Source: Halanaerobiaceae bacterium (lineage in GTDB: Bacteria; Bacillota; Halanaerobiia; Halanaerobiales; Halarsenatibacteraceae). From it: 49,490 nucleotides of DNA. The stretch covers positions 1-49,490 of the forward strand of contig PWEJ01000087.1 in the NCBI GenBank assembly GCA_003553485.1. The letters are read 5' to 3'. The position numbers and the translations under genes were made by a program. The notes below the pieces were generated by a model, which had not been told where the DNA came from, searched no databases, and saw only the letters and a list, made by a program, of their open reading frames with translations. Below, one piece after another: positions 1 through 16,560 of this stretch (its first letter is position 1; each line of letters begins with the position of its first letter).

Positions 1-750
1 CTTGAAAGTCTCCAGGGTTTCAGGTCCAACGGTGGGGATATCCAGTCTAAAGTCCTGCCGGGGGCGACTGGCCTTAGCCAGCTGCAGTCCCGCTGACTCA
101 GATCCGGCCAGCAGTTTACCGGCTCTCTTGATGGCGGCATCGGTCCCCTCTACCGCCTCCACTGCCAGCACGGTACCTGAGGCCAGAAGCAGTGACTGGC
201 CCACCTCAAAATCAGCCAGCTTTTGGGCCAGCTTGAGACCCTCTTTAAGTTCCTGCTCCAGTTTATCCTCTGGCGACTCAATAAAGGGACCCACCTGCCA
301 GCCCGGTTCAAAAAAGACTTCATCTAAGAAGGTATCCTGGGGTAAGAGCTCAATCCCTCTCTCCTGGAGACACTTTAAAAATCCTTTGAGGATGGTCTCA
401 TCCTGCCAGTCGGGCAGGCTGGCCAGGAGTTTCTTCATCTCGGCATCAAAATATTGTTCCTGAAAGAGGCGGGCTTTCTCTATCTTACCTAACATTACTG
501 CCTGACTGATATCATCGGCCTCTAGCTGAGATAGGAGTTCCCCTAAAGAGGCGGGATTTACCTCCCGCACCAATTCTGCCGCCGATAAATCCGGTTTTGC
601 CAGGCCAGAGCGGGCAACCGTCTCCGGCAGCTCAATCTTTTCAGGGGCTGTTAAGTGATAGGCCACCACCTCTGCCCCAGCTCTTTGAGCCTCTTTTAGC
701 CAGATAGACGGCAGCCGACCGGTTCCTGCCAGCAAAGCTATCCTACTCAT
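1..750 (-). CDS. lpxI: LpxI, UDP-2,3-diacylglucosamine pyrophosphatase (partial, C-terminus beyond window)
   Basis: Predicted cytoplasmic or membrane-peripheral hydrolase of UDP-2,3-diacylglucosamine to lipid X and UMP, the fourth step of lipid A synthesis (LpxI family, formerly DUF1009, which replaces LpxH in many bacteria). I translated 250 codons from the ATG at 750 without a stop. The start MSRIALLAGTGRLP resembles the family N-terminus, and the family signatures LAVEAVEGTDAAIKRAG and DFRLDIPTVGPETLE are visible near the C-terminal end. LpxI is usually about 270-285 residues, so roughly 20-35 residues lie outside the window. Its start overlaps the lpxA stop by 8 bases (ATGAGTAG), which suggests translational coupling. 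LpxB would be expected next downstream, but it cannot be seen here. Confidence 0.9.
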   Translation of the reverse strand, partial: MSRIALLAGTGRLPSIWLKEAQRAGAEVVAYHLTAPEKIELPETVARSGLAKPDLSAAELVREVNPASLGELLSQLEADDISQAVMLGKIEKARLFQEQYFDAEMKKLLASLPDWQDETILKGFLKCLQERGIELLPQDTFLDEVFFEPGWQVGPFIESPEDKLEQELKEGLKLAQKLADFEVGQSLLLASGTVLAVEAVEGTDAAIKRAGKLLAGSESAGLQLAKASRPRQDFRLDIPTVGPETLETFK

Positions 751-1615
751 CCTTATCCCTCCGAAGAAAAACCAGCAGCTCCTCTCCTAATGCCGTCTCT
801 GGCTCTGGAAAATCTTTATCCTTGAGGCTCTGAAGCTGTGACTGGCGAAGTTTTCCCTCTTCCTCTGAGCGGTAAAGCTGGCGGTAAATATTTTTGAGAT
901 CCTTCACATCTGAGTGCTGATAGCCAGCTCGTCTCAGAGCAATGACATTAAGCCCCCGCAGAGCAGCTGGATTACCATCGGCTAAAAGAAAAGGAGGCAG
1001 ATCATCTCTTTGATAGGAATGGCCTCCTAACATGCTGAGCCTTCCCTGTTTGACTCCCGGGCCAAGCTGACATAAGCCTCCCAGAAAAGCCCCGCTGTCA
1101 ATCTCGGCCTCTTCACCGACTACAGTGGCATTGGCAATATTGATATTATCCTTAAGCCTGGCCCCGGCTTTTATCACCGTATAGGCCATCAAAAAATTAT
1201 TATCACCAATTATGGTGACTGGTGCCTTTTCTTCGGTCTGTTTTATCTCAGTCTGTTTCTCTCTTAGATACTGCTTTCTCTGGCCGTACTCCCTGCTCGA
1301 GCTATATATAATTGTGTATTCCCGAAAAACATTGTTGGCTCCGATTTTAACCTGACCTCTTTCTGAGGAGCCAGGCTGATCCTCTCCTTCTCTGGCCCCG
1401 ATTATTACTCCGCTCTGAAAGATATTGTTTTCACCGGCTGTCACTTTTCCTGTCAATCTGACCCTGGACTTAAGCCTGCAGCCCGGTCCTAATTGCACTT
1501 CAGGACCAACCACCGACCAGGGACCAATCTCACAGCCCGGTCCCAGTTGAGCCCCGGGAGATATTTCAGCACTGGCGGCAACCTTTATTTCAGTAGTGGG
1601 CATCGGCTGCTTCAC
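743..1615 (-). CDS. lpxA: LpxA-like UDP-GlcNAc acyltransferase homologue lacking the catalytic histidine
   Basis: Left-handed beta-helix hexapeptide-repeat protein of 290 residues (family about 255-270). It starts with GTG, which overlaps the fabZ TGA in a GTGA box. The fold, the C-terminal helical domain (LPPFLLADGNPAALRGLNVIALRRAGY, quoted here only as LPPFLLADGNPA and GLNVIALRRAGY) and the position between fabZ and lpxI identify it as the LpxA orthologue. LpxA transfers an R-3-hydroxyacyl group from ACP to UDP-GlcNAc. By hand alignment the E. coli residues His122, His125 (general base), His144, His160 and Gln161 fall on Val147, Ala150, Glu168, Gly185 and Pro186, and the His99 region reads IIYSSS. 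An insertion of about 20 residues, rich in K, E and Q, sits at 108-131. Either the mechanism differs, another protein does the reaction, or this one is a structural or inactive relative. Orthology is fairly sure; activity is not. Confidence 0.82.
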   Translation of the reverse strand: MKQPMPTTEIKVAASAEISPGAQLGPGCEIGPWSVVGPEVQLGPGCRLKSRVRLTGKVTAGENNIFQSGVIIGAREGEDQPGSSERGQVKIGANNVFREYTIIYSSSREYGQRKQYLREKQTEIKQTEEKAPVTIIGDNNFLMAYTVIKAGARLKDNINIANATVVGEEAEIDSGAFLGGLCQLGPGVKQGRLSMLGGHSYQRDDLPPFLLADGNPAALRGLNVIALRRAGYQHSDVKDLKNIYRQLYRSEEEGKLRQSQLQSLKDKDFPEPETALGEELLVFLRRDKDE

Positions 1616-2136
1616 CTGCCAACCTGACGGGTGGCAAAGGTCAGGGTGGCCTCGGCAGCCAGCTCCCCTGCAACCCTGGCAGTTGCTTTAACTTTGCTTA
1701 GAGAGGCCCGCACTCTTAAAATCTCGGCCTCTAAAATCAATGTATCGCCGGGGCGGACCTGACGGCGAAACTTGGCCTCTTTAATGCCAGCAAAGAAGGC
1801 TATTTCATCCCTATCCTGTTCCTCTTCTTCCTGCTCCGACTGATAGCTTTTAAGAAGGAGAATCCCTCCAGCCTGAGCCATAGCCTCAATGATTAAAACT
1901 CCTGGCATCACCGGTAGTTCAGGAAAATGGCCCTGAAAAAACTCTTCGTTGATGGTAACATTTTTTTTGGCTCTAATGGACTCTTCCTCTTGATAATCCA
2001 AAACTCTATCTACCAGGAGGAAGGGATAACGATGGGGCATAATATCCAGTATCTCATCTATCTCAAGCTGATTCATTTTCTTCTTTTTTTCTTTCTGGTC
2101 AGTCTGTTTCTCCTCATCTGCTGTCATCTCTATCAT
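1612..2136 (-). CDS. fabZ: FabZ, 3-hydroxyacyl-ACP dehydratase
   Basis: Hot-dog-fold dehydratase of fatty-acid elongation. It competes with LpxA and LpxD for R-3-hydroxyacyl-ACP, hence the common fabZ-lpxA pairing. The catalytic histidine is in the motif DIMPHRYPFLLVDRV (His35 counting from the first ATG) and the catalytic glutamate is in VLIIEAMAQAGG (Glu84). Three starts are possible: ATG at 2136 (23-base overlap with lpxC), ATG at 2127 (well spaced from the AGGAAAGGA sequence), or ATG at 2076, which gives the usual FabZ N-terminus MNQLEIDEIL. The first 20 residues are charged and lysine-rich and are not conserved in the family. A short acidic insertion (SEQEEEEQDRDE) precedes the IAFFAGIKEAKF motif. 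Confidence 0.95.
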   Translation of the reverse strand: MIEMTADEEKQTDQKEKKKKMNQLEIDEILDIMPHRYPFLLVDRVLDYQEEESIRAKKNVTINEEFFQGHFPELPVMPGVLIIEAMAQAGGILLLKSYQSEQEEEEQDRDEIAFFAGIKEAKFRRQVRPGDTLILEAEILRVRASLSKVKATARVAGELAAEATLTFATRQVGR

Positions 2137-3181
2137 TCCTTTCCTGCTTTTTTTCCTGGTCCCGCTGGGCTGCTATTTTTCGGGCTAACTCATGATTATG
2201 GCGGTGACCACTTCTGACGGCCAGGACCCTGGCTATCAGGGGACCGGCCAGGTAAAGATCGCCCAGAAGGTCTAAAAGTTTATGGCGGGCTGGTTCATTT
2301 ATAAAGCGCAGTTTTTGATTGGGACCCTGGTGGGAAAATAAGAGGGCCTCCTGAGCCTCTGCTCCCCCGGCTAAACCCTGCTTCTTTAAAGCTCTAAATT
2401 CTCTTTTCAGGGCAAAAGTCCGGGCAGGAGCCAGCTCCCGGGCAAAGTTATTAAGGCGTTCCTGGGGCTTTAAGCGCTGGTCAAGCTCAAAGGTTGCCCG
2501 CTGATAACCGGGAGGTTCCGGGCCGTAATCGAGATGATACTCCAATTCTAAAGTTAAATTCATATTGGCCATGTTAACAATATTTTCTATGTCAGCACTG
2601 GCTTGAGGCTTAACCCTTGCTCTCTGAGGTTGGTCATTCTGAGATTGATCATAAAGTTGGTCAATAAATGATGGGGGGAGGAGCAGAAGCTGGGCCTCAC
2701 CCTGACCAAGGATAATAGGTCTTTCCGGGATAAAATAACAACGGGGCTGACCCTGAGCTTTAAAGCCAGCCTCCTGTAGTAAGGAGAGAAAAATATTGCC
2801 ACTGCCATCTCTGCTGGGTAGCTCCGCTCCTTCTAACTCCAGCAACACATTATCGATTCCGGTGGCCGCCAGAGCTGCTAAAAGATGCTCACAGGTAGCT
2901 ATCTCTGACCCGGGCTCAGTTTCAGTTTGAGCTCCAGCTAAGTTAAGCCTGCTGGAGTCAGGTCTAATCTGCAAAGTGGTAGACCGCCTGCTCTCCTTTA
3001 GCCGCCCGGGACTCACCATCAGCTCCGGCTCTCCGGCTATATCTCGTCGACGAAGGATAATCCCACTATCGACTGCTGCCGGCCGGGCTGAGAGCAGAGC
3101 AGGGCTACCGCTATGAATTCCCCTGCCTTCGACCCGGGCTTCCTGCCCCAGGGTGTATTGCTCTCCAGCTCTTAACAGCAT
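2114..3181 (-). CDS. lpxC: LpxC, UDP-3-O-acyl-N-acetylglucosamine deacetylase
   Basis: Zinc amidase that catalyses the committed step of lipid A synthesis in the cytoplasm. It has two LpxC domains. Zinc ligands are His99 in TCEHLL, and His300 and Asp304 in PARHKLLDLLGDLYLAG. Asp308 and the proton-relay His326 in RSGHRHNHELA are also present, so the active site looks intact. At 355 residues it is longer than E. coli LpxC (305). The extra length lies around residues 45-90 and in a polar insertion near 171-205 rich in Q, N and D. The ATG at 3181 follows a GAGGAGGAATT site. The last codons overlap fabZ. It is read with the upstream lptA-like and lptF genes. Confidence 0.95.
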   Translation of the reverse strand: MLLRAGEQYTLGQEARVEGRGIHSGSPALLSARPAAVDSGIILRRRDIAGEPELMVSPGRLKESRRSTTLQIRPDSSRLNLAGAQTETEPGSEIATCEHLLAALAATGIDNVLLELEGAELPSRDGSGNIFLSLLQEAGFKAQGQPRCYFIPERPIILGQGEAQLLLLPPSFIDQLYDQSQNDQPQRARVKPQASADIENIVNMANMNLTLELEYHLDYGPEPPGYQRATFELDQRLKPQERLNNFARELAPARTFALKREFRALKKQGLAGGAEAQEALLFSHQGPNQKLRFINEPARHKLLDLLGDLYLAGPLIARVLAVRSGHRHNHELARKIAAQRDQEKKQERNDRDDSR

Positions 3182-3254: not shown

Positions 3255-3887
3255 TTAAAGCTTAAGCTCGATGGAAACATTGCCCTCAGCGGTAAAGACC
3301 TGGCCGTCTTCCATATCAATCTCGGCTCTATCACTGGTGATTCTATCGCCATTTTCTTCTACGATCTCCACCTGACGCCGGAGATAGAAGATGCCCTCTT
3401 CCTCTCGATAATCACCTTCTTCACTGGTGATAGTTCGCCCGCCCTGATAGATGGTCAGGCCAGAATCCATCTCATAGCTTTCTCTTTCGGCATTATAGAG
3501 GAGGCGAGGGGCTGTTAAATTCAAAGGTTCATTATCTTCATCTTCCTCTAAAGTCAACTCTACCTCCTCTTCAAAGAGAATATCCTCATCATCTAAATAG
3601 ATGGTCATCTTTAAGGACCTGATATGGCCCCGCTCCATTAGCATCTCGATATCTTCATAGAGGTAGGCAATGGAGTTCTCCCGGTCAATCTCGCCATAGC
3701 GAGAGGTTATCTCTAAATCCTGCCAGAAAATTGTCACCCCGTCCTTTAAATCAATCCAATCCTCCTGATAGTTGAGACTGCCTGCTGAGATCTGCATGCT
3801 GGCCTGAACCGGGAAAGTTCTAAAGCCTGCCAGCAGAAAGAATGGCAGGATCAGCAGGATAGCCAGCCTGAAAGTGTTTTTTGTCAT
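3255..3887 (-). CDS. LptA/OstA-like periplasmic protein (copy 2)
   Basis: Secreted protein of 210 residues. The N-terminal hydrophobic segment (about residues 7-29, ending PVQAS) is a probable signal peptide, followed by repeating beta-strand motifs of the OstA/LptA N-terminal type: ISAGSLNYQEDWIDLKDGV, then blocks ending in ITSEEGDY and ITSDRAEIDMEDGQVFTAEGN. LptA-like proteins form the periplasmic bridge that carries lipopolysaccharide from LptB2FG/LptC to the outer membrane. The arrangement of motifs closely repeats that of the protein at 5205-5939, so the two are likely paralogues flanking the permease gene. The protein is strongly acidic. One copy may act as an LptC substitute; that is inference. 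Confidence 0.8.
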   Translation of the reverse strand: MTKNTFRLAILLILPFFLLAGFRTFPVQASMQISAGSLNYQEDWIDLKDGVTIFWQDLEITSRYGEIDRENSIAYLYEDIEMLMERGHIRSLKMTIYLDDEDILFEEEVELTLEEDEDNEPLNLTAPRLLYNAERESYEMDSGLTIYQGGRTITSEEGDYREEEGIFYLRRQVEIVEENGDRITSDRAEIDMEDGQVFTAEGNVSIELKL

Positions 3888-4005: not shown

Positions 4006-5130
4006 CTAAAAGAAATGAGTCATAAAGCGGTTAATGACACCAAAGAGTGAATCGCGAAAAATTATCAACAGAACACCCAAAACAAAGAAAAAGCCATTGG
4101 GCAGCCAGGCAGCCACTAAGGGTGTAAAAGCGCCAGCCCGGCCTAAAGAACGGGAAAAGGAGACCAGCACATAATAGGTGAAGATAATAACCACCGTCAG
4201 AGCTAAAGATAAAGCCCGGCTCTCCCTGTTACCAAGACTTAAGGGAGTTCCCACCAGGATAAAGATAAAGGCTGTGAAGGGCAGGGCCAGTTTCATGTGA
4301 TAATCGACTAAAAGCCTCGTCACATCAATGCCGCTGCGCTGAAAGAGCTCTATCTCCTGGCGCAACTCCTGGCGGCTCATCTCTGCCGGTGTCCGCTGCC
4401 GGGCTAAAAATTGCTCCATATCATCCTCCAGCTGGAGCTCCATCTCCGAGAAGCCAGCTGCTACCTCTAACCGGCCATCACTGGTATAGGAATGGAGGTG
4501 ACCGTCGGTTAAAAGCCAGTCGCTGCCTAAGACCTGGCCCTGCTGAGCGGTGATGACCTCCGGGAAACCATCTCCCCGGGAGCGATCAAAGATCACCACT
4601 GATTCTAAAGTGAGCTCATTTTCATCATAGTTTTCCACATAGAAGATTTTATCGTCGGGCCCCTCAAAAAAGACATTTTCCTGCACATCAGGCATCACAT
4701 CCTGCAGAGCCAGTCTCCTGATGATATTGCGGGCCTGGTGGTTGCTCCAGGGTACTACCTGTTCGTTGATGAGATAAGTGCCCAGGGTAACTAATAGCCC
4801 AAAGACTATCAGCGGTACCACCAGCCGATAGATACTGAAGCCCCCCATTCTGATGGCAAAGAACTCATTCTCCCGGGTCAGCCTGCCCAGCCCCACCATG
4901 ACGGCAAAGAGCACGGCCATGGGAAAAGACTGAACGAAAATCTCCGGCAATTGATAAAGGAGCAGGCGCAGAACCTCATCCACAGGGGCATCCTGCATGA
5001 TGATAAGGTCAGCAACTTCATAGAGAAAGTTACTCAACATCACAACGCCGATTACCATCACTCCGGCCACATAGGGCCGGGCAATCTCCTTAAAAATATA
5101 TTTATCTACTATTAACGGTTTAATTCTCAA
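4006..5130 (-). CDS. lptF: LptF/LptG family permease (YjgP/YjgQ)
   Basis: Inner-membrane permease component of the lipopolysaccharide export ABC transporter. The 374 residues follow the family plan: transmembrane helices near 15-40, 60-80 and 100-125, a large periplasmic beta-rich domain (about 130-265), and three C-terminal helices (about 275-365). Characteristic stretches are YIFKEIARPYVAG, LPEIFVQSFPMAVLFA and GRLTRENEFFAIRMGG. The start is a TTG at 5130 spaced seven bases from GGAGGG. Proteobacteria carry two such genes, lptF and lptG; only one lies here, between two LptA-like genes. A homodimer or a second copy elsewhere is possible. No LptB ATPase gene is in the window. Confidence 0.92.
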   Translation of the reverse strand: MRIKPLIVDKYIFKEIARPYVAGVMVIGVVMLSNFLYEVADLIIMQDAPVDEVLRLLLYQLPEIFVQSFPMAVLFAVMVGLGRLTRENEFFAIRMGGFSIYRLVVPLIVFGLLVTLGTYLINEQVVPWSNHQARNIIRRLALQDVMPDVQENVFFEGPDDKIFYVENYDENELTLESVVIFDRSRGDGFPEVITAQQGQVLGSDWLLTDGHLHSYTSDGRLEVAAGFSEMELQLEDDMEQFLARQRTPAEMSRQELRQEIELFQRSGIDVTRLLVDYHMKLALPFTAFIFILVGTPLSLGNRESRALSLALTVVIIFTYYVLVSFSRSLGRAGAFTPLVAAWLPNGFFFVLGVLLIIFRDSLFGVINRFMTHFF

Positions 5131-5204: not shown

Positions 5205-5939
5205 TTATAATTCCAGCTCTATCTCTACTTCGCCTTCGGCGGTGAAGAGGTCGCCTTCACCGAGGTGGAGTTCGGCCTGCTGACTGGTGATGGTATCGCC
5301 ACCGGCTTCCACTATCTCCACCCCGTCATAGAGATAAAAGACATCCTCTTCGGCACTATAATCACCGGAACCTGCTGCTATATCGCGGTTCTCATCTTCA
5401 ATGGCAAGGTCACTCTCTATGAAAAAGTCATCGCTGGCTGTATCATACTCCAGCTCTTCGGTCTCCAATATATAGCCTTCGCCGTTATCTTCTCCGGTGA
5501 TATCGAGGATTACATCGTCTTGAAAAAATACCTGGTCATCCTCTAAATAAATCACCATCTCCTGGGAGTTTATCTCGCCCTGGTCAAACTCCATGCTGAT
5601 ATCCTCATAAAGATAGGTGATGGAATCTTCGCGGTCCACTTCCCCGCGCTGGGAGTAAATATCATATTCCTGCCAGTAAATCACTACTCCATCCTCTAAA
5701 TCTATATAGTCCTCTTCATAGGTCAATCCACCGGCATCTATCTGGAGACTCTCGCCGGCTTCCTCTGCCTCCTCTGTCTCTTCCTGCATTTCTTCCTCTA
5801 CTGCCTCCTCTGCCTGTACTCTGGCTTCAAAGCCAGGCAGGGTCAGGCTAAGGGCCAGAAATAACAGTGTCAACACTATTAGCATTAGCCCTCTTTTAGT
5901 AAAATCAGTTGGAGCCAGTTTTCTTTCCAGTCTCTTCAT
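5205..5939 (-). CDS. LptA/OstA-like periplasmic protein (copy 1)
   Basis: Secreted protein of 244 residues starting at an ATG after CTGGAGGG. A basic N-terminus and hydrophobic segment (about 17-42) form a signal peptide with cleavage probable near VQAEE. An acidic linker (about 44-64, mostly E and A) follows. The rest is an OstA/LptA-type beta repeat region: LQIDAGGLTYEEDYIDLEDG, then several 30-residue units ending TITSQQAELHLGEGDLFTAEGE. It shares the same unit order and many identical positions with the protein at 3255-3887. The likely role is periplasmic LPS transport together with the LptF permease encoded immediately downstream. Confidence 0.8.
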   Translation of the reverse strand: MKRLERKLAPTDFTKRGLMLIVLTLLFLALSLTLPGFEARVQAEEAVEEEMQEETEEAEEAGESLQIDAGGLTYEEDYIDLEDGVVIYWQEYDIYSQRGEVDREDSITYLYEDISMEFDQGEINSQEMVIYLEDDQVFFQDDVILDITGEDNGEGYILETEELEYDTASDDFFIESDLAIEDENRDIAAGSGDYSAEEDVFYLYDGVEIVEAGGDTITSQQAELHLGEGDLFTAEGEVEIELEL

Positions 5940-6809: not shown

Positions 6810-7919
6810 TTATTGCTCTGATGGCAAATATTGATCCAGACGCTTTTCTAACTCCTGGATCTGCTGCTTGAGCTTATCGAGACGGCGGAAATGAGCCTGC
6901 TGTTTTAAATAGGTGCGATGTTCCTGAGCCGGAATGCCAGAATAATAACCCCCTTCTTCAAGGTCCCGGCTAACCTTGGCCTTGCCGGTGATGGTGACTC
7001 CTTCTCCTATTTTAAGGTGATCTTCCACGCCCACCTGACCGGCTAAAGTTGTTCTGGCACCAAGCTCGGTGCTGCCGGCAATCCCACTCTGACCGGCCAC
7101 CAGCGAACCCGGACCTAGCTTGACATTATGGGCTATCTGAACTAGATTATCGATCTTGCTGCCAGCTCCAATCCGTGTTTCTCCTGCCACTCCTCTGTCA
7201 ATGGCGGTTAAAGCACCGATCTCCACCTCATCTTCAATCACCACTTTTCCCTGCTGAGGCACCTTATGGTGACGCTCTTCGTCACTGGCATAGCCAAACC
7301 CATCAGAACCTATGACTGCTCCGGCCTGAATCTCCACCTTATCACCGATTATAGCTCCCGGCATCACCTTAACTCCGGGATGGAAAAGACAGTCCTGGCC
7401 TATCTCAATATCAGCTACCAGGATGACTCCGGCAGCTATTCTGCTCCTGGCACCAATCTTCACTCCCGGTCCGATGATAGCTCCGCTCATCACGGTGACA
7501 CCTTCTTCTAACTCAGCTGCTGGCGATACTCTGGCTCCAGCAGCTATTTCCCCCTGGTTGACCAGGATTTTACTGCTCTCCTGACCATAGTTTTCAGCCA
7601 GATAGCGTTTATCCGGAAAGAGATTGGCCAGCTGAGCAAAGGCAGTCCGGGGGTTATCCACCAGCAGTAATGGAACATCAGCAAGAGCCAGCTCCGATTC
7701 CTGGTAAAGACTCCTGGTTAATAAAATTAAACCAGCCTTATTTTCCCGGGCCAGTTTTAAAAAATTTTCATCTTCAGCATAGGTCAGATAGTCAGGGTCA
7801 GCCTCTGGCGCTCCCCGCACCCCTTTAATATTCTTCTCCGGATTAGCTTTGAGCTCTCCTCCTGCTTTAGCCGCCAATTCCGAAGCCTGCCAGACTGATT
7901 TAGTTTCCTTCTGAGACAT
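6810..7919 (-). CDS. lpxD: LpxD, UDP-3-O-acylglucosamine N-acyltransferase
   Basis: Adds the second R-3-hydroxyacyl chain, to the 2-amino group of UDP-3-acyl-glucosamine, in the cytoplasm. The N-terminal uridine-binding domain spans about residues 1-110, the left-handed beta-helix with hexapeptide repeats about 115-325, and a C-terminal coiled helix about 330-369. Key residues are present: the GSDGFGYA motif (205-212), the catalytic His264 in NLVQIAHNV (E. coli His239) and His301 in [12 protein letters not shown] (E. coli His276). Length 369 against 341 in E. coli. The ATG at 7919 lies 2 bases after the stop of the OmpH-like lipoprotein gene, so the two are co-translated or coupled. This contrasts with lpxA, which lost its catalytic histidines. 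Confidence 0.96.
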
Positions 7920-9604: not shown

Positions 9605-10057
9605 TTATTGTTGATTCAAATATTCAATGATTTCTGGAGTTAAATCATAGCCTCCATAGAGCACATTTTGTCCTTCCAGGACAACCTTGGCTCCCACTTC
9701 CTCAGCCAGTTCTGTAATAATCCCTTCGATATCGCTTAAGACCTCCCCGATTAGTTCCTGTTCCCTCTGGGTCAGCTGCTCCTGATAATCCTGCAGGAGG
9801 TCCTGCTGTTCTTCCTGGCTCAGCTCATCAGCCTGGGCCTCTAATTCCTGCTGTAGTTCCTGGGCCTCCTGATTTAGCTGTTCTTCCGCTGATTCCTTGT
9901 CCGGATGGGCCTCAAAGACCTCCTCCAGGTTGACAAAGGCAATCTCACCATCAGTCTCTGCCTGTACTGGACTGCCGCTAAAACCAACACCTATCAAAAG
10001 AAGGGCTACCATTATTGCTGTAATAGTTAATTTAATGCCTTTACTGCTGAAATTCAC
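9605..10057 (-). CDS. skp: OmpH/Skp family periplasmic chaperone
   Basis: Protein of 150 residues. The signal peptide (about 1-33) ends in PVQAE. The mature chain starts IAFVNLEEVFEAHPDKESAEEQL, matching the Skp/OmpH pattern (IAYVDxxxVF), here written as IAFVNLEEVFEAHPDKES. The middle (about 58-105) is a Q/E-rich helical hairpin, and the end reads GAKVVLEGQNVLYGGYDLTPEIIEYLNQ, quoted in part as VVLEGQNVLYGGYDLTPEI, the classic C-terminal beta-strand segment of the family. It starts with GTG after GGAGG. It lies immediately behind bamA, as skp does in Proteobacteria and Negativicutes. Role: holdase for outer-membrane proteins on their way to BamA. Confidence 0.9.
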   Translation of the reverse strand: MNFSSKGIKLTITAIMVALLLIGVGFSGSPVQAETDGEIAFVNLEEVFEAHPDKESAEEQLNQEAQELQQELEAQADELSQEEQQDLLQDYQEQLTQREQELIGEVLSDIEGIITELAEEVGAKVVLEGQNVLYGGYDLTPEIIEYLNQQ

Positions 10058-10124
10058 TGCTTAAATTCCTCCTTTAAGTTTGCTTTTCTTTGCTTTTTTC
10101 CGACCTTTATTTTAAAAAATAGCT

Positions 10125-11756
10125 TTAGAATGTCTGACCGAAACCTAAATGCGGTGTTCCGCTCCAGTCTTCATCGAAGGCATAATCCAGCCTGACCTGG
10201 CCAATGGGAGTATCCAGTCTTACTCCTAAGCCCTGGGAGCGGCTGAAATTCTGGGTGCGGAATATCTTATCTTCTTCATCTTCCTCGGGATAATGATTCC
10301 AGACATGACCTATGTCCATAAAGCCCACACCCTGTACACTATCGATGATCTGAAAGCGGTACTCTAGATTACCAAGAACCATATTATCACCGGTCATCCG
10401 GTCATATCCTCTGAGAGTATCAGGACCTCCAATGGCATATTTCTCCTGGGAAGGGAGCTCATCATCGCTAAAACCTGATTTAACTCTGAGGCCGATGGCA
10501 TGGTCATCCTGATAACCTTCGGTAAAACGGCTAAATTCATTGCCATATTTGATAAAGTCCTCATCGCCACCTACCAGATAACCGCCAAACTCCAGGTTGA
10601 ACTCATTGATGCCTCCCTCCTGGGGAAAGAAGGGATTATCGCGACTATCTTCCCGGGCCCTAAAGTTCATGCTGCGAGTCACAATATCTTCATCGAGGTT
10701 ATTGCGGTGCCGAAATCTTACATTGCCCCGCCAGTCATTGATCAGGGGATAACCTAAGGCAGTGCTTAACTCCCGCATCCGATCTCCGCGCTGGATAAAA
10801 TCTGCGGCTTCAATATCAAAGGAAATTTCACTGCCCATCACCCGGGGTTCATAGAAGCTCAACCGATATTCTCGTTCTCCTCCGAAACGACCATAGACGG
10901 AGACCTCCTGACCTCGCCCCAAAAGATTGCGCTCCTCTAAATCCACAAAGCCAAACCAGTCACTGCCATCGGGGTTTTGCTGATAACCGGCCCCGAAGTT
11001 GATTGAACCTGTATTACCTTCCATGAATTCCAGAATTAAGTTGGCCGTATTTTCAGCTTCGTCGGCCATCATTAAATCAGGGTAAATATCTTCAAAAAAC
11101 TCCAGCATGAATACATTTTCCAGATTCCGCTGCAGTTGATTATAGTTTAAGGGGTCACCTGGCTCCAGCTCCAGTTCCCGTAAGATCACATAATCCCGGG
11201 TCTTGTCGTTACCCTCCAGAATTATATCCTCCAGGTAACCCAGATTAATATCCACTGTAAGTAAACCATCAACACTGATATCTACGTCATCGATGCGGGC
11301 TATTATATAGCCATCATCCTGAAAGCGATATTGCAGGTCCCGCACTCCAGTATTGAGGCGTTCGGCATTTAAAACCTCACCTTCCTCGACACCTAAAATT
11401 TCCTTTACTTCTGCACTGGTATAGACATCAGCCAGGCCGCTGATATCAACTTCCGTGACCCTGGGAAACTCCTGGACCTCAAAGATGGCCTTAAGCCCCT
11501 CGGCGGTGCTTTGAAAGCTAACGCTGACATCTTCAAAATAACCCATATCATAAACAGCTTCCATATCCTGTTGTAAGACGTCCCTGTCATACTCATCACC
11601 AGCCTGACTGGAGATCTGCCCTCGGATCTCAGCTTCACTGATATTTTCATTACCTGTAATCTCAATTTCCGCCAGCGTCTCCTGGGCCTGCAGGGCCCCT
11701 GGTACCAATAGGAGAGCTAACAATATCATTCCGGTAAAAAGAGCGATTTTCTTCAT
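10125..11756 (-). CDS. bamA: BamA, Omp85-family outer-membrane assembly factor with three POTRA domains
   Basis: Core of the beta-barrel assembly machinery. Signal peptide 1-24 (ends ALQA). Three POTRA units are visible by their repeated pattern: about 26-96, 97-173 and 174-246. The C-terminal Omp85 barrel starts about 250 with NFGAGYQQNPDGSDWFGF and runs to the final phenylalanine (GFGQTF). The barrel carries the family motif GGPDTLRGYDR (the VRGF/Y loop). At 543 residues it is much shorter than E. coli BamA (810, five POTRAs). It starts with an ATG after AAAGGAGG. It has tamB upstream and skp downstream. No other Omp85 gene is in the window, so it may also serve as the TamA partner of TamB. 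Confidence 0.93.
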   Translation of the reverse strand: MKKIALFTGMILLALLLVPGALQAQETLAEIEITGNENISEAEIRGQISSQAGDEYDRDVLQQDMEAVYDMGYFEDVSVSFQSTAEGLKAIFEVQEFPRVTEVDISGLADVYTSAEVKEILGVEEGEVLNAERLNTGVRDLQYRFQDDGYIIARIDDVDISVDGLLTVDINLGYLEDIILEGNDKTRDYVILRELELEPGDPLNYNQLQRNLENVFMLEFFEDIYPDLMMADEAENTANLILEFMEGNTGSINFGAGYQQNPDGSDWFGFVDLEERNLLGRGQEVSVYGRFGGEREYRLSFYEPRVMGSEISFDIEAADFIQRGDRMRELSTALGYPLINDWRGNVRFRHRNNLDEDIVTRSMNFRAREDSRDNPFFPQEGGINEFNLEFGGYLVGGDEDFIKYGNEFSRFTEGYQDDHAIGLRVKSGFSDDELPSQEKYAIGGPDTLRGYDRMTGDNMVLGNLEYRFQIIDSVQGVGFMDIGHVWNHYPEEDEEDKIFRTQNFSRSQGLGVRLDTPIGQVRLDYAFDEDWSGTPHLGFGQTF

Positions 11757-11792
11757 AGCCGCCTCCTTTATCAGTAAAATTATTTTTTCTGC

Positions 11793-11822
11793 TCTGATTT
11801 TCTTGCTTCTGATTTTCTTGCT
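11793..11822. repeat. Perfect tandem duplication of a 15-mer upstream of bamA
   Basis: TCTGATTTTCTTGCT occurs twice head to tail (11793-11807 and 11808-11822). It sits in the leader between the promoter at 11844 and the bamA start. Confidence 0.8.
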
Positions 11823-11843
11823 ATAGAACTATCGTCTACCTGC

Positions 11844-11873
11844 ATTATAACATAGAGTTTCCTGACTTAATTT
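11844..11873 (-). promoter_or_regulatory. Extended -10 promoter upstream of bamA
   Basis: TGTTATAAT (TGnTATAAT) lies at 11844-11852 on the minus strand, about 90 bases before the bamA start. The -35 region is AT-rich with no good match, as is usual for extended -10 promoters. It would allow bamA-skp-lpxD expression apart from tamB. Confidence 0.5.
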
Positions 11874-11928
11874 AAAATTTTTATTAAATTATCATCATAT
11901 TTCTTTATAAAGACCGGTTCATCTTTTT

Positions 11929-11956
11929 AATCCCGGATAATCAATCCCGGATAATC
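11929..11956. repeat. Perfect tandem duplication of a 14-mer after tamB
   Basis: AATCCCGGATAATC occurs twice without spacing (11929-11942 and 11943-11956), 12 bases beyond the tamB stop. It is the second small tandem duplication in the 211-base tamB-bamA gap. Confidence 0.8.
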
Positions 11957-11967
11957 CAGTTGCAACC

Positions 11968-14900
11968 TTAAAACTCAAAACCTGTCTCCAGGGTAAAGGA
12001 AAAATCATCGAAGGAGTTAAAGGTGCCATCTAAAAAGGTGCGTTCGCTGAGATAATAGCGGAAGGATAGTGAAGTATCCCGCTCATCAAAGCCGAAACGG
12101 CTTTCACTCTCCAGATAAAGACGGTCAGTTAAATCCATACCCATATAAAGGGTCATCTCCTGGTCTTCCAGAAGACCACCTTCAGAAACCAGCTCAAAGC
12201 GGTCCAGCTCTAAAGCCCGGCGCAATCGAGCAGAGACATCAGCCAGGAGCTCAAATTCCAGTTGCTCCCGCAAAAATCTCATGAATTCCTGCTGAATCAC
12301 CTGGGGCATGCTGTACTCCTGCCCGGCCAGCACTCCCCCCAGGCCGCCGCGGCTTAAGAGCAGTGAAATTATCTCCTCTTCCTCTCTTTCTGGAGTGGAG
12401 GCAAAGGTAGTGGATAAATTATCGGCTGGACCATCGATATTCACCTGAATCTCATGGTTATCGGCTTCAGTTCTGGCCCTCACTGTGGCCCGGGGAATTA
12501 TCCCCCGTCGACGGCTAAAGTCCAGCCGGGCTGTTTCTAAAGTAAAACGATTATTATAAAAGTAGACTGAACCCTGATTGGAGGCCAGCTCTCCATCTAT
12601 CTCAAAATTATCGCTATAAAGCAGGCGCAATTCCCCGCGTTGAATCTGCACTTCAGCGTTATCATGCTGGAAATAGTTGTTATCACCTACAATTAATTTG
12701 AGGTCCATCTCCGGCTGAAAATTACTCCTGGGCGGTTCCTCTCCTTCGCCGGTCGGGTCCGGAACAGCTACATCTTCCGGTAAAACTGCTATCAAATTAT
12801 TGAAAGTAATTTCACCTGCCAGAAGTGGATTTAACATTGCTCCGCTGAAGGTAAGTTCTCCCGTTATGTCCACTTCACTGCCCTGATAAAAGAGGGGCAG
12901 GGCCCTGGTTTTAGCAGTAAGGTCCCAGAAATCAGCCTGCTGATTTAAATTAAGACCGCCGCTAAAATCGACCTGACCGCCATCCAGATAGCCGGTAAAA
13001 TCCTCTAATTCCATTCTGCCACCGCTAAAGTTGAAATTGCCGCCTAATTCCAGAGTTTCCTGCTGGCCAAAATCGACTTTACTGATATCTACCAGCAAAT
13101 CACCGGCAGTGGAAATTTCCTCCAGGGAAGCTCCTGTGGCTTCCACTTCTCCCTCCAAAGAGCCGACAATCTCCTCTAACTGGGGCATAAGCTCAGCTAC
13201 CGGGTCTAGGGGGAAATCGGCAGCGGAAATTAAAAATTCAGCCTCGGCAGGTTCCTGCCAGGGCAGACGGGCCGAGAGATTGAGATACTGGCCTGGTTCG
13301 GCCACCAGCTCCTGGCTGATGGTTAAAATCTCCCCGGCAATCAAATTAGCCTCTCCGGCAATTTCAGCAAACTCATAGGGTCCCACCTCGATATCACGGG
13401 CAAGGGTCCTGAGCTCAAAATCAGGCTCCTCCAGGGGGCCTTTAAGCTCTCCGGCAAATTCCATCTGACCGCTGAAGGCAACCTCGGGCTCGAAAAAGTC
13501 ATCCAGCCAGCCCAGCTGGATATCTTCCCCTATAAGTTCAACATCAAATTCGTCGGTCATATCGCCCTGCAGGCTCACCTGCCCCAGCTCTCCTGATTCA
13601 CTGCTGGCCAGAAGGTCCACTCCGGCCTGAAAATCTGTGGGAGAACCGGTGAGGTTTAATTCTCCGCTGAGTAGATAATCTATATCCAGGGGAGTTTCCA
13701 GGGCCAGTCTCTTGAGATAATGGTTTAACTCTACCTCTGCAAGATCTAAGGTAAGATCCAGCCTGGGCTCATCTAAGAGTGATTCCACCTCTCCCCTTAG
13801 AGTATATTGACCGGGACCGGGCTGCCAGTCAGCTTCCACCAGAGTCAATACATCATCTGCCAGAGTTAAATCAGCCTTAAGAGAGCCCAGATCTTCCTCT
13901 GCCCAGGCCAGCTCCTCTATCTCTAAATGGGTTTCTCCTGCCGGGTTATCATAGCTCCCCTCAAGCTCTCCGCTGGCTGAGGCCAGGCCGCTGAGATCCT
14001 CCAGCTCTTCGAACTCCAAACCCTGGAGGGGGAAATCACTGATAGAGTAATCAACCCAAAACTCTTCACTAAAGGCTCCATCCATGGTGAAAAGAGCCTC
14101 TTCCTTCTCCATTTTCAGATCGATAACCTGGAAGGGCTCCCCTGTCTGCCAGTAAAAACTGGAGCTGGCATTAGTGAATTCAAATACCTGCTGCTCTTCT
14201 CCTTCTCCCAGGGGTAAAATGGTGCTGCGAGAAGTGGCCTCAGAGTTTACCTCCAGCTCTGAAAAGGGCCCCTCTACCTCTACTATTCCACTAACATCAC
14301 CTTCTAAGGGCAGACCAATATCAAAGATCTCGTTAATATATTGATAGGTTATTTCAGCTATATCCAGGCGGGCAGTCAACTCCGGCTCCTCTGCGGCTAG
14401 AGAAAGATCGCCCTGTCCCTGAACTTCTGCCCCGCGACTTGTAAAATCCAGCCCCCTGATACTAATGAGGTCGCGGTCAGAAAAATAAAATAAGTTACCA
14501 TAACCCTCTACAACTTCCACGCCAAAGATTTCAGCTTCAGGCAGGGCCAGACTGGCTGAGATACCCGGTGATTCCAGGGTGCCAGTGAGGCGACCTGAGA
14601 GGCTACCCCGGCCCGTAAGCTCATTATTGAGACCAGTGAGGGAGCCAATCTCCGTCAGATCAACCTCTCCTGTCTCCAGCCTTAAATCCATCTCTCCAGC
14701 CAAGAGGTCTACCTCGCCTCCCAGTTCCAATTCTGCCAGTTCAGTATCGGCTCGGGCAGGACCTACTTCCATCCTGCCCTCACTGAGCCAGAAAGCGCTG
14801 GAGATCTCACTGGCCTGGAAGGCCCCTGCTGGAAAGAGTTCCTCTTCCTGCAGGCGAAAATCTGTCAGGCTAATTTCTCCAGCTAAAAGCAGGTCCTCTA

Positions 14901-16560
14901 AAGATAGACCCTCTCCGGAGCCGGTGAAATTGGCCCGGAAATCACCGCCAGGAGAGGCAGCCATAACCTCCTCCAGGCCCAGCTCAGCTGCCAGTTCAGC
15001 TGGAAAGACTTCAACCAGAGACTGCTGCCAGCGCTCTAAGTCCATATCAGCCACTTCCAGCTGAAAGTTATATTCCTCACTGGCCGGTTTATAATCTCCC
15101 TGGGCCCGGAGAAGCTCCTGGCCCTCTAAAGTATTCAGGGAAAGATCATCCAGCCACAATCGGTCCTGCTGCCAGCGGGCCGCCACTTCAGTTATAAGTT
15201 CCTCCTGGCCAATATTGCTGCCATTTAAGGATATTTCTGCCCCCAGCGCCGGGCCCTTTTCTTCGGGGCCAGAGGCAAAATTATCAGAATCAAAACTTCC
15301 AGAGCTTAAATTTAAGGTAAAATCAGCCTCCCGGGGCCAGCTATCAGCCAATCCAGCAGGTTGATCGTCGTAATCCTCTTCTTCCATCATGGCCTGCGGC
15401 AGGTCCAGAGAAAATTCTTCTGCTAAAAATTCCTGCCAGGGGGCCAGGGCAATCCCCTCACCGGAGAGGGTAAAGAAATAATCAGTAAAGTCAGGTAATT
15501 GAACATTTCCCTGCCCCTGATAGCTGTGGTCCAGGAAATCCAGCTTTAAATCATCCAGCAATAGATGACCCTTCTCACTGTGGTAAGAGGTCCCCCAGCT
15601 GATATTCTCCAGCTTAAGTTCTGGATCCTCCAATCCCAGCTGAGAGAGCTCTGTTATTCCTTCGACTTTAAAGCTCTCAAGCTCATCCCGGTAACCTTCA
15701 CCGGTAAAACCCAGCTGCTGCTCACCGCTAAAATTTAACCCCTCTAGAGGCAGTTCCTGGTCGGCTGCCAGCTCAGCTGTGATAGGCTGCAGCTGATCCA
15801 GTTCAGCTTTAAGGTCAGAGCGGATTTCCCATTCTTCTGCTGAAAGTTCCAGGGCCAGCTCCAGCTCCGGCAGCTCCAGGCTCTCTAATATAACAGCTTC
15901 CTCGGCAGTAAATAATTCTGCCGGCAGTTGCAGACCGGTAAGCTCTAAAGACCCTCCTAAGCCGGCAGCTAGCGATTGCTCATCTTCAACAATGATTTCC
16001 AGCCGCTGCAGGGCCAGGGCCAGGCTGCTCTCCCGTTCCTGGTAGAATATTTCTCCACCCTGAACAACAAGACCTGCCCCGGCAGGTAACGGCGGGAGTT
16101 CACGCCAGATAGGGGCAGGGTCAGGTATTTCCATATCTTCATCCAGGTCCAGTTCCGTCAGCAATTCCCCTTCAGGGTCGCTGACATAGACCTCGGGTTC
16201 AATTACTTTTAACTGCTTAAAACTGGCCAGCAGACCTTCTCCCAGGTCAAAGTTGTTTAAATCAGCTAAAGAATTCCAGGCTACCTGCAAAAGGTTAGAG
16301 AAGTCATAATAAATAACAGCCTCTGGCAGATAAATATCAATCTCCTCTGACCGTGAAAGGGTAAGGTCAGTAAGGCGCAGTTGATTTAAAGGCAACCAGT
16401 TTATCTCCTCAACTTCAATATCCATTTCCAGGGAGTTTTCCAGCTCGGTTATAATTCTCTCCTGTCCCTCTTCCAGCCAGCCCTGCTCTAAGATATAGAA
16501 AGGGGTGGCTGCTACAGCTGTTAATAGCAGCAGAATTAAAAATAATTTTTTCCAGGTCAT
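11968..16560 (-). CDS. tamB: TamB-family (AsmA-like) inter-membrane protein
   Basis: Very large protein of 1530 residues. An N-terminal transmembrane helix (about 4-24) anchors it in the inner membrane. An AsmA-like segment (about 25-130) is followed by a long beta-rich repeat body, acidic and rich in G, L and E. The C-terminal TamB domain (former DUF490; about 1200-1530) includes ISLLLSRGGLGGVLAGQ and the final VSARLRRALELDRFEL...TGFEF region. TamB proteins bridge the envelope and help outer-membrane protein assembly and phospholipid transport. E. coli TamB is 1259 residues, so this one is longer. It lies directly upstream of bamA, the arrangement reported for diderm Firmicutes. Start ATG after GGGGAGGG. 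Confidence 0.9.
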   Translation of the reverse strand: MTWKKLFLILLLLTAVAATPFYILEQGWLEEGQERIITELENSLEMDIEVEEINWLPLNQLRLTDLTLSRSEEIDIYLPEAVIYYDFSNLLQVAWNSLADLNNFDLGEGLLASFKQLKVIEPEVYVSDPEGELLTELDLDEDMEIPDPAPIWRELPPLPAGAGLVVQGGEIFYQERESSLALALQRLEIIVEDEQSLAAGLGGSLELTGLQLPAELFTAEEAVILESLELPELELALELSAEEWEIRSDLKAELDQLQPITAELAADQELPLEGLNFSGEQQLGFTGEGYRDELESFKVEGITELSQLGLEDPELKLENISWGTSYHSEKGHLLLDDLKLDFLDHSYQGQGNVQLPDFTDYFFTLSGEGIALAPWQEFLAEEFSLDLPQAMMEEEDYDDQPAGLADSWPREADFTLNLSSGSFDSDNFASGPEEKGPALGAEISLNGSNIGQEELITEVAARWQQDRLWLDDLSLNTLEGQELLRAQGDYKPASEEYNFQLEVADMDLERWQQSLVEVFPAELAAELGLEEVMAASPGGDFRANFTGSGEGLSLEDLLLAGEISLTDFRLQEEELFPAGAFQASEISSAFWLSEGRMEVGPARADTELAELELGGEVDLLAGEMDLRLETGEVDLTEIGSLTGLNNELTGRGSLSGRLTGTLESPGISASLALPEAEIFGVEVVEGYGNLFYFSDRDLISIRGLDFTSRGAEVQGQGDLSLAAEEPELTARLDIAEITYQYINEIFDIGLPLEGDVSGIVEVEGPFSELEVNSEATSRSTILPLGEGEEQQVFEFTNASSSFYWQTGEPFQVIDLKMEKEEALFTMDGAFSEEFWVDYSISDFPLQGLEFEELEDLSGLASASGELEGSYDNPAGETHLEIEELAWAEEDLGSLKADLTLADDVLTLVEADWQPGPGQYTLRGEVESLLDEPRLDLTLDLAEVELNHYLKRLALETPLDIDYLLSGELNLTGSPTDFQAGVDLLASSESGELGQVSLQGDMTDEFDVELIGEDIQLGWLDDFFEPEVAFSGQMEFAGELKGPLEEPDFELRTLARDIEVGPYEFAEIAGEANLIAGEILTISQELVAEPGQYLNLSARLPWQEPAEAEFLISAADFPLDPVAELMPQLEEIVGSLEGEVEATGASLEEISTAGDLLVDISKVDFGQQETLELGGNFNFSGGRMELEDFTGYLDGGQVDFSGGLNLNQQADFWDLTAKTRALPLFYQGSEVDITGELTFSGAMLNPLLAGEITFNNLIAVLPEDVAVPDPTGEGEEPPRSNFQPEMDLKLIVGDNNYFQHDNAEVQIQRGELRLLYSDNFEIDGELASNQGSVYFYNNRFTLETARLDFSRRRGIIPRATVRARTEADNHEIQVNIDGPADNLSTTFASTPEREEEEIISLLLSRGGLGGVLAGQEYSMPQVIQQEFMRFLREQLEFELLADVSARLRRALELDRFELVSEGGLLEDQEMTLYMGMDLTDRLYLESESRFGFDERDTSLSFRYYLSERTFLDGTFNSFDDFSFTLETGFEF

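Follow-up and report, generated by a model that had tools for sequence, protein, structure and literature searches.

The window, by which we mean the whole stretch of 49,490 nucleotides analysed here, carries on the minus strand near its low end the genes lpxD (6810-7919), lpxC (2114-3181), fabZ (1612-2136), an operon homologue of lpxA (743-1615; hereafter lpxA1) and lpxI (1-750), the last of which is truncated at the contig end. LpxA, a drug target, catalyses the first step in lipid A synthesis. The lpxA1 gene lies between fabZ and lpxI, has a GTG start and encodes a product of 290 amino acids. It shares 4 nt with fabZ, and the start of lpxI overlaps its end by 8 nt, in agreement with the tight coupling to the neighbouring genes described in an earlier note on this DNA. 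The operon is intact, since the low end of the window shares 121 bases with contig C46, where lpxI goes on and is followed by lpxB and, downstream of it, by genes for an ABC-transporter ATPase and an LptF/G-like permease (both named by translation). Between lpxD and lpxC, an LptF/G-like permease gene (4006-5130) has an LptA/OstA-like gene on either side (3255-3887 and 5205-5939). Upstream of the lpx genes, OmpH-like, BamA-like and 1530-aa TamB-like genes follow each other in one run (9605-16560) and form an outer-membrane biogenesis cluster; these genes, like the three between lpxD and lpxC, were also named by translation.

The AlphaFold model of LpxA1 (mean pLDDT 88) has the LpxA fold across its full length and matches Pseudomonas aeruginosa LpxA with UDP-GlcNAc (5dep_A) with a Z score of 33 over residues 9-290. 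Both LpxA domains are present (PF00132 and PF13720, scores above cut-off), while the protein remains under the curated equivalog cut-offs (TIGR01852, 164.6 versus 231 bits; NF003657, 180 versus 226). In its fold, operon position, UDP/acyl half-site and C-terminal domain PF13720, LpxA1 resembles the LpxA of Escherichia coli (1LXA) and P. aeruginosa (5DEP).

The active site of LpxA lies between two subunits, each of which contributes one half (PMC7072397). The UDP/acyl pocket on one subunit comprises E. coli residues L116, M118, I134, I152, M170, N198, R204 and others, the GlcNAc/catalytic pocket on the other subunit comprises Q73, D74, K76, H122, H125, G143, H144, H160, Q161, F162 and others, and the oxyanion hole is the backbone amide of a conserved glycine (PMC7072397). 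Another study agrees on the placement of H160 versus N198 and R204, but assigns the Q161 side chain to the other chain (PMC6408518). We mapped LpxA1 by alignment to solved LpxA and to 123 canonical LpxA. In E. coli numbering, H122 is replaced by V147, H125 by A150, H144 by E169, H160 by G185, Q161 by P186 and H99 by Y104; Gly143, which we take to be the oxyanion-hole glycine, is lost as well (E168). The earlier claim that all aligned active-site histidines are lost is exact for the window protein, and the mapping given with it stands in all positions except H144, which aligns with E169 and not with Glu168, the counterpart of G143.

The lost catalytic half is represented on the minus strand by VIKAG (residues 147-151; 1163-1177) in place of E. 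coli H122-x-x-H125-D126, by EE (residues 168-169; 1109-1114) in place of G143-H144, and by GPG (residues 185-187; 1055-1063) in place of H160-Q161-F162. The polar insertion reported near the active site is likewise present (residues ~108-131; 1223-1294) and is partly predicted to be helical (residues 108-121). The UDP/acyl half is kept in M143 (1187-1189; E. coli M118), in the acyl ruler region of residues 195-198 (1022-1033; M170 to G173) and in the UDP-binding residues 223-229 (929-949; N198 to R204). Altogether 14 of the 15 positions of this half-site hold tolerated residues, defined as those found in at least 3% of the 123 canonical LpxA. A hidden active-site histidine can be ruled out, because only H199 and H234 are present and neither is located at the site; H199, the counterpart of C174, is nothing unusual in canonical Halanaerobiales LpxA (MVGAHS motif). 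A sequencing or assembly error can be ruled out as well, because the same loss recurs in 11 genomes.

Our survey covered 38 Halanaerobiales genomes, mostly MAGs. All 11 operon LpxA recovered from families f1 and f7 (pseudo-LpxA1) lack H125, H144, H160 and Q161, and the oxyanion-hole G143 is lost along with H125 in each of them; H122 is kept in family f7, and all five catalytic residues are replaced in the window protein. The operon LpxA is canonical in the 23 other genomes analysed, and in four (G032, G028, G027 and G001) LpxA1 was not recovered, with lpxC missing too or the contig ending there. H122 and H125 are kept in LpxA recovered elsewhere in the same class and in 81 of 82 LpxA frames from many phyla, the exception belonging to the pseudo-LpxA1 clade. 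Pseudo-LpxA1 is in frame in all 11 genomes, and its pairwise dN/dS in the f7 genus (0.03-0.13) is not above that of fabZ, lpxC and lpxI of the same genomes. The sharing of the loss by operon LpxA of two families and the purifying selection measured in the f7 genus uphold the earlier view that lpxA1 is not an obvious pseudogene. In a genome of the same genus as the window bacterium (G029, L013:472-2388), the LpxA1 homologue lies inside an open frame of 639 codons, its LpxA core being preceded and followed by long Lys/Ser/Gly-rich low-complexity stretches.

The genome from which the window derives also contains a second LpxA (LpxA2), divided between the ends of contigs C59 and C101, whose exact overlap is again 121 bases. 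LpxA2 keeps H122, H125, H160 and Q161 as well as G143, and has lost H144. Its gene order is LptD-LpxA2-GnnA-GnnB, so that LpxA1 and LpxA2 are encoded in different operons. LpxA2 accompanies pseudo-LpxA1 in 10 of 11 genomes, the exception being a genome of 62% completeness; canonical LpxA1 occurs without LpxA2 in 19 of 23 genomes and with it in four. Contamination as the source of LpxA2 is ruled out by the presence of both copies on one contig in G025, G030, G033 and G037, and is likewise contradicted by the phylogeny, in which LpxA2 is a single clade (support 100/100) grouping with Halanaerobiales LpxA1. This position suggests that LpxA2 originated by duplication within the Halanaerobiales lineage. 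Another acyltransferase, as had been proposed, is available and retains most catalytic residues. The earlier note had named a second canonical lpxA in the genome as evidence that would speak against its reading, and LpxA2 largely corresponds to such a copy; but LpxA2 is itself incomplete in the UDP half, so that the anomaly is relocated rather than explained away.

The homologues of GnnA and of the aminotransferase GnnB adjoining LpxA2 have predicted substrates. The best named family of GnnA is UDP-GlcNAc 3-dehydrogenase, with a score below the curated cut-off of NF040723, which is an archaeal model. In Acidithiobacillus, GnnA and GnnB convert UDP-GlcNAc en route to GlcN3N (PMC8036547; PMC5644692). 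This role, together with the position of both genes beside LpxA2, leads us to predict UDP-GlcNAc3N as the acceptor. The same sugar nucleotide is the acceptor of Leptospira LpxA. LpxA2 would accordingly resemble the GnnA/GnnB-dependent LpxA of Acidithiobacillus and Leptospira, although both half-sites are retained in L. interrogans LpxA (tabulated in PMC7072397), whereas here LpxA2 is accompanied by another LpxA that is catalytically empty. In G030 (L048), unlike in other LpxA2 clusters, GnnB directly follows LpxA2, and a search at E 1e-30 found no GnnA in that genome. The GnnA of other members of the phylum have no convincing LpxA adjacent, and the phylum consequently provides no GnnAB-linked control.

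The distribution of losses over the two half-sites, whose residue sets were taken from PMC7072397 and not fitted to our data, is reciprocal. The LpxA1 of f1 and f7 keep 159 of 165 positions in the UDP half (96%) and 32 of 154 in the GlcNAc half (21%), LpxA2 keep 88 of 240 (37%) and 179 of 224 (80%), respectively, and canonical Halanaerobiales LpxA1 keep 100% in both halves; retention at other positions is 0.81 in LpxA1 and 0.85 in LpxA2. At the 29 pocket sites the retention of LpxA1 and LpxA2 is anticorrelated (rho -0.68, p 6e-5), while at 88 other conserved sites it is not significantly correlated (rho +0.12), and in conservation-matched permutations the UDP half of LpxA1 is high (P 0.0004) and both the GlcNAc half of LpxA1 and the UDP half of LpxA2 fall below all 20,000 draws, with the proviso that sites and genomes are not fully independent, as they represent few lineages and mostly MAGs. 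An interface mixed from the UDP half of LpxA1 and the GlcNAc half of LpxA2 has tolerated residues at 22-28 of 29 positions, compared with 14-21 in LpxA1 homomers, 9-22 in LpxA2 homomers and 2-14 in the opposite pairing. A pairwise aligner, a different method, returned the same half-site picture. This reciprocity is most pronounced in f1: in most genomes of this family, LpxA2 has lost the UDP contacts N198 and R204 outright.

These results bear on whether LpxA1 is a decaying gene that is merely kept in place by translational coupling within the operon. We regard this as very improbable, and it was already disfavoured: long branches, the low-complexity insertions of the G029 homologue and a shorter C-terminus in f1 would be in line with decay, but the low dN/dS, the reading frame open in 11 of 11 genomes and a UDP half retained above matched sites are not. 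Equally hard to sustain is the idea that LpxA1 alone still acylates with novel catalytic residues, such as the Lys-Glu pair that replaces His160-Gln161 in f7 and G030. This pair is conserved in six sequences and the fold of LpxA1 is intact; however, it is missing in the window genome (G-P), G024 and G029, and H125 and the oxyanion-hole glycine are lost throughout. A changed mechanism, as suggested in the earlier note, is not supported for LpxA1 alone.

It is also conceivable, but rather unlikely, that LpxA2 by itself constitutes a working homotrimeric LpxA that has adapted to UDP-GlcNAc3N or to a different acyl donor, and that LpxA1 is a pseudoenzyme acting as sensor or regulator. Such a regulator would, with the same small probability, bind acyl-ACP or a UDP-sugar by means of its intact UDP/acyl half and, for example, balance the flux through FabZ, LpxC and LpxA. 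The preservation of the UDP/acyl half of LpxA1 under purifying selection and its gene position between fabZ and lpxI agree with a regulatory role, and the retention of H122, H125, G143, H160 and Q161 with an active LpxA2. Nevertheless, the loss of N198 and R204 from most f1 LpxA2 is difficult to reconcile with an independent enzyme. A new sugar could account for the changes of LpxA2 at D74 and K76, but does not explain why the UDP half was lost, given that the nucleotide is the same and Leptospira LpxA keeps the equivalent contacts N193 and R199 (PMC7072397). The site-by-site anticorrelation is likewise not predicted by a self-sufficient LpxA2, and an acyl-ACP-binding regulator accounts only for LpxA1, whereas a mixed oligomer accounts for the state of LpxA1 and for the loss of the UDP half in LpxA2.

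Given the residues, gene order, co-occurrence, reciprocal loss and purifying selection that the sequences document, we consider it likely that LpxA1 and LpxA2 are old paralogues with complementary half-site loss that work as a mixed complex, their association, activity and substrate being predicted. LpxA2 would supply the GlcNAc/catalytic face (H122, H125, the oxyanion-hole G143, H160 and Q161), and LpxA1 the UDP/acyl face (M118, G155, M170, N198 and R204). In a mixed trimer of both, cyclic symmetry would leave exactly one interface in productive order, and the probable acceptor would be UDP-GlcNAc3N produced by GnnA and GnnB, resulting in lipid A with amide-linked acyl chains at position 3. 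That LpxA is here an obligate hetero-oligomer, with one composite site formed by reciprocal loss after duplication and coupled to GlcN3N (amide-linked) lipid A, is a more specific reading that we favour somewhat less firmly. The heteromeric arrangement once envisaged for this locus is thus right in type, with the evidence favouring LpxA1 and LpxA2 as the partners and giving no support for LpxA with LpxD. We also have to consider that the catalytic half of LpxA2 is itself altered, which counts against a mixed complex: D74 is lost in 16 of 16 LpxA2, K76 is often lost, and H144 and F162 are altered in the genus of the window bacterium. The location of the two genes in different operons counts against it likewise, as do the conflicting assignments of Q161 in the two structure papers and the weakened UDP half of LpxA2 in four genomes whose LpxA1 is fully canonical.

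The LpxA2 of G004, G006, G022 and G023 provide insight into the order of events. Their UDP half is weakened (6-8 of 15) despite a fully canonical LpxA1, so the loss in LpxA2 was not triggered by that in LpxA1; instead, the dependence of LpxA2 on LpxA1 probably preceded the loss of the catalytic half of LpxA1. These four genomes would represent a stage alive today with LpxA2 weakened and LpxA1 intact, f7 and G030 a later one with both reduced, and the rest of f1 the extreme. In the tree, the pseudo-LpxA1 of f1, except that of G030, are placed outside Halanaerobiales on long branches. AU tests did not reject one LpxA1 clade and one pseudo clade (p 0.106 and 0.123), and the tree is thus compatible with one or two origins of the LpxA1 loss. 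In G047 (same class, family f10; L195:1054-1866), which has a canonical operon LpxA, a further LpxA encoded away from the lpx operon has G143 replaced by E, H160 by Y and Q161 by E but retains H125 and the entire UDP half; this may be an early, independent instance of such a loss.

To our knowledge, solved LpxA are homotrimers whose three sites are identical, whereas here each paralogue keeps one half-site. Our literature search, with subscription journals mostly outside its scope, found no LpxA heteromer or LpxA pseudoenzyme. A comparable arrangement is the gamma-carbonic anhydrase CA1/CA2/CAL2 of plant mitochondrial complex I, a left-handed beta-helix heterotrimer of paralogues that includes subunits without catalytic residues and has one competent interface of three (PMC7447434). 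The mixed LpxA trimer is predicted to be alike from sequence, but the anhydrase complex concerns another reaction and its enzymatic role is unclear, whereas LpxA1-LpxA2 would carry an essential pathway step. For these bacteria, operon gene order alone is misleading, and an annotation of lpxA1 as a working LpxA is wrong. If our interpretation is true, GlcN3N lipid A should occur in diderm Firmicutes, and the two paralogues would be a clean natural case of the transition from a homomer to an obligate heteromer by the splitting of an active site between them.
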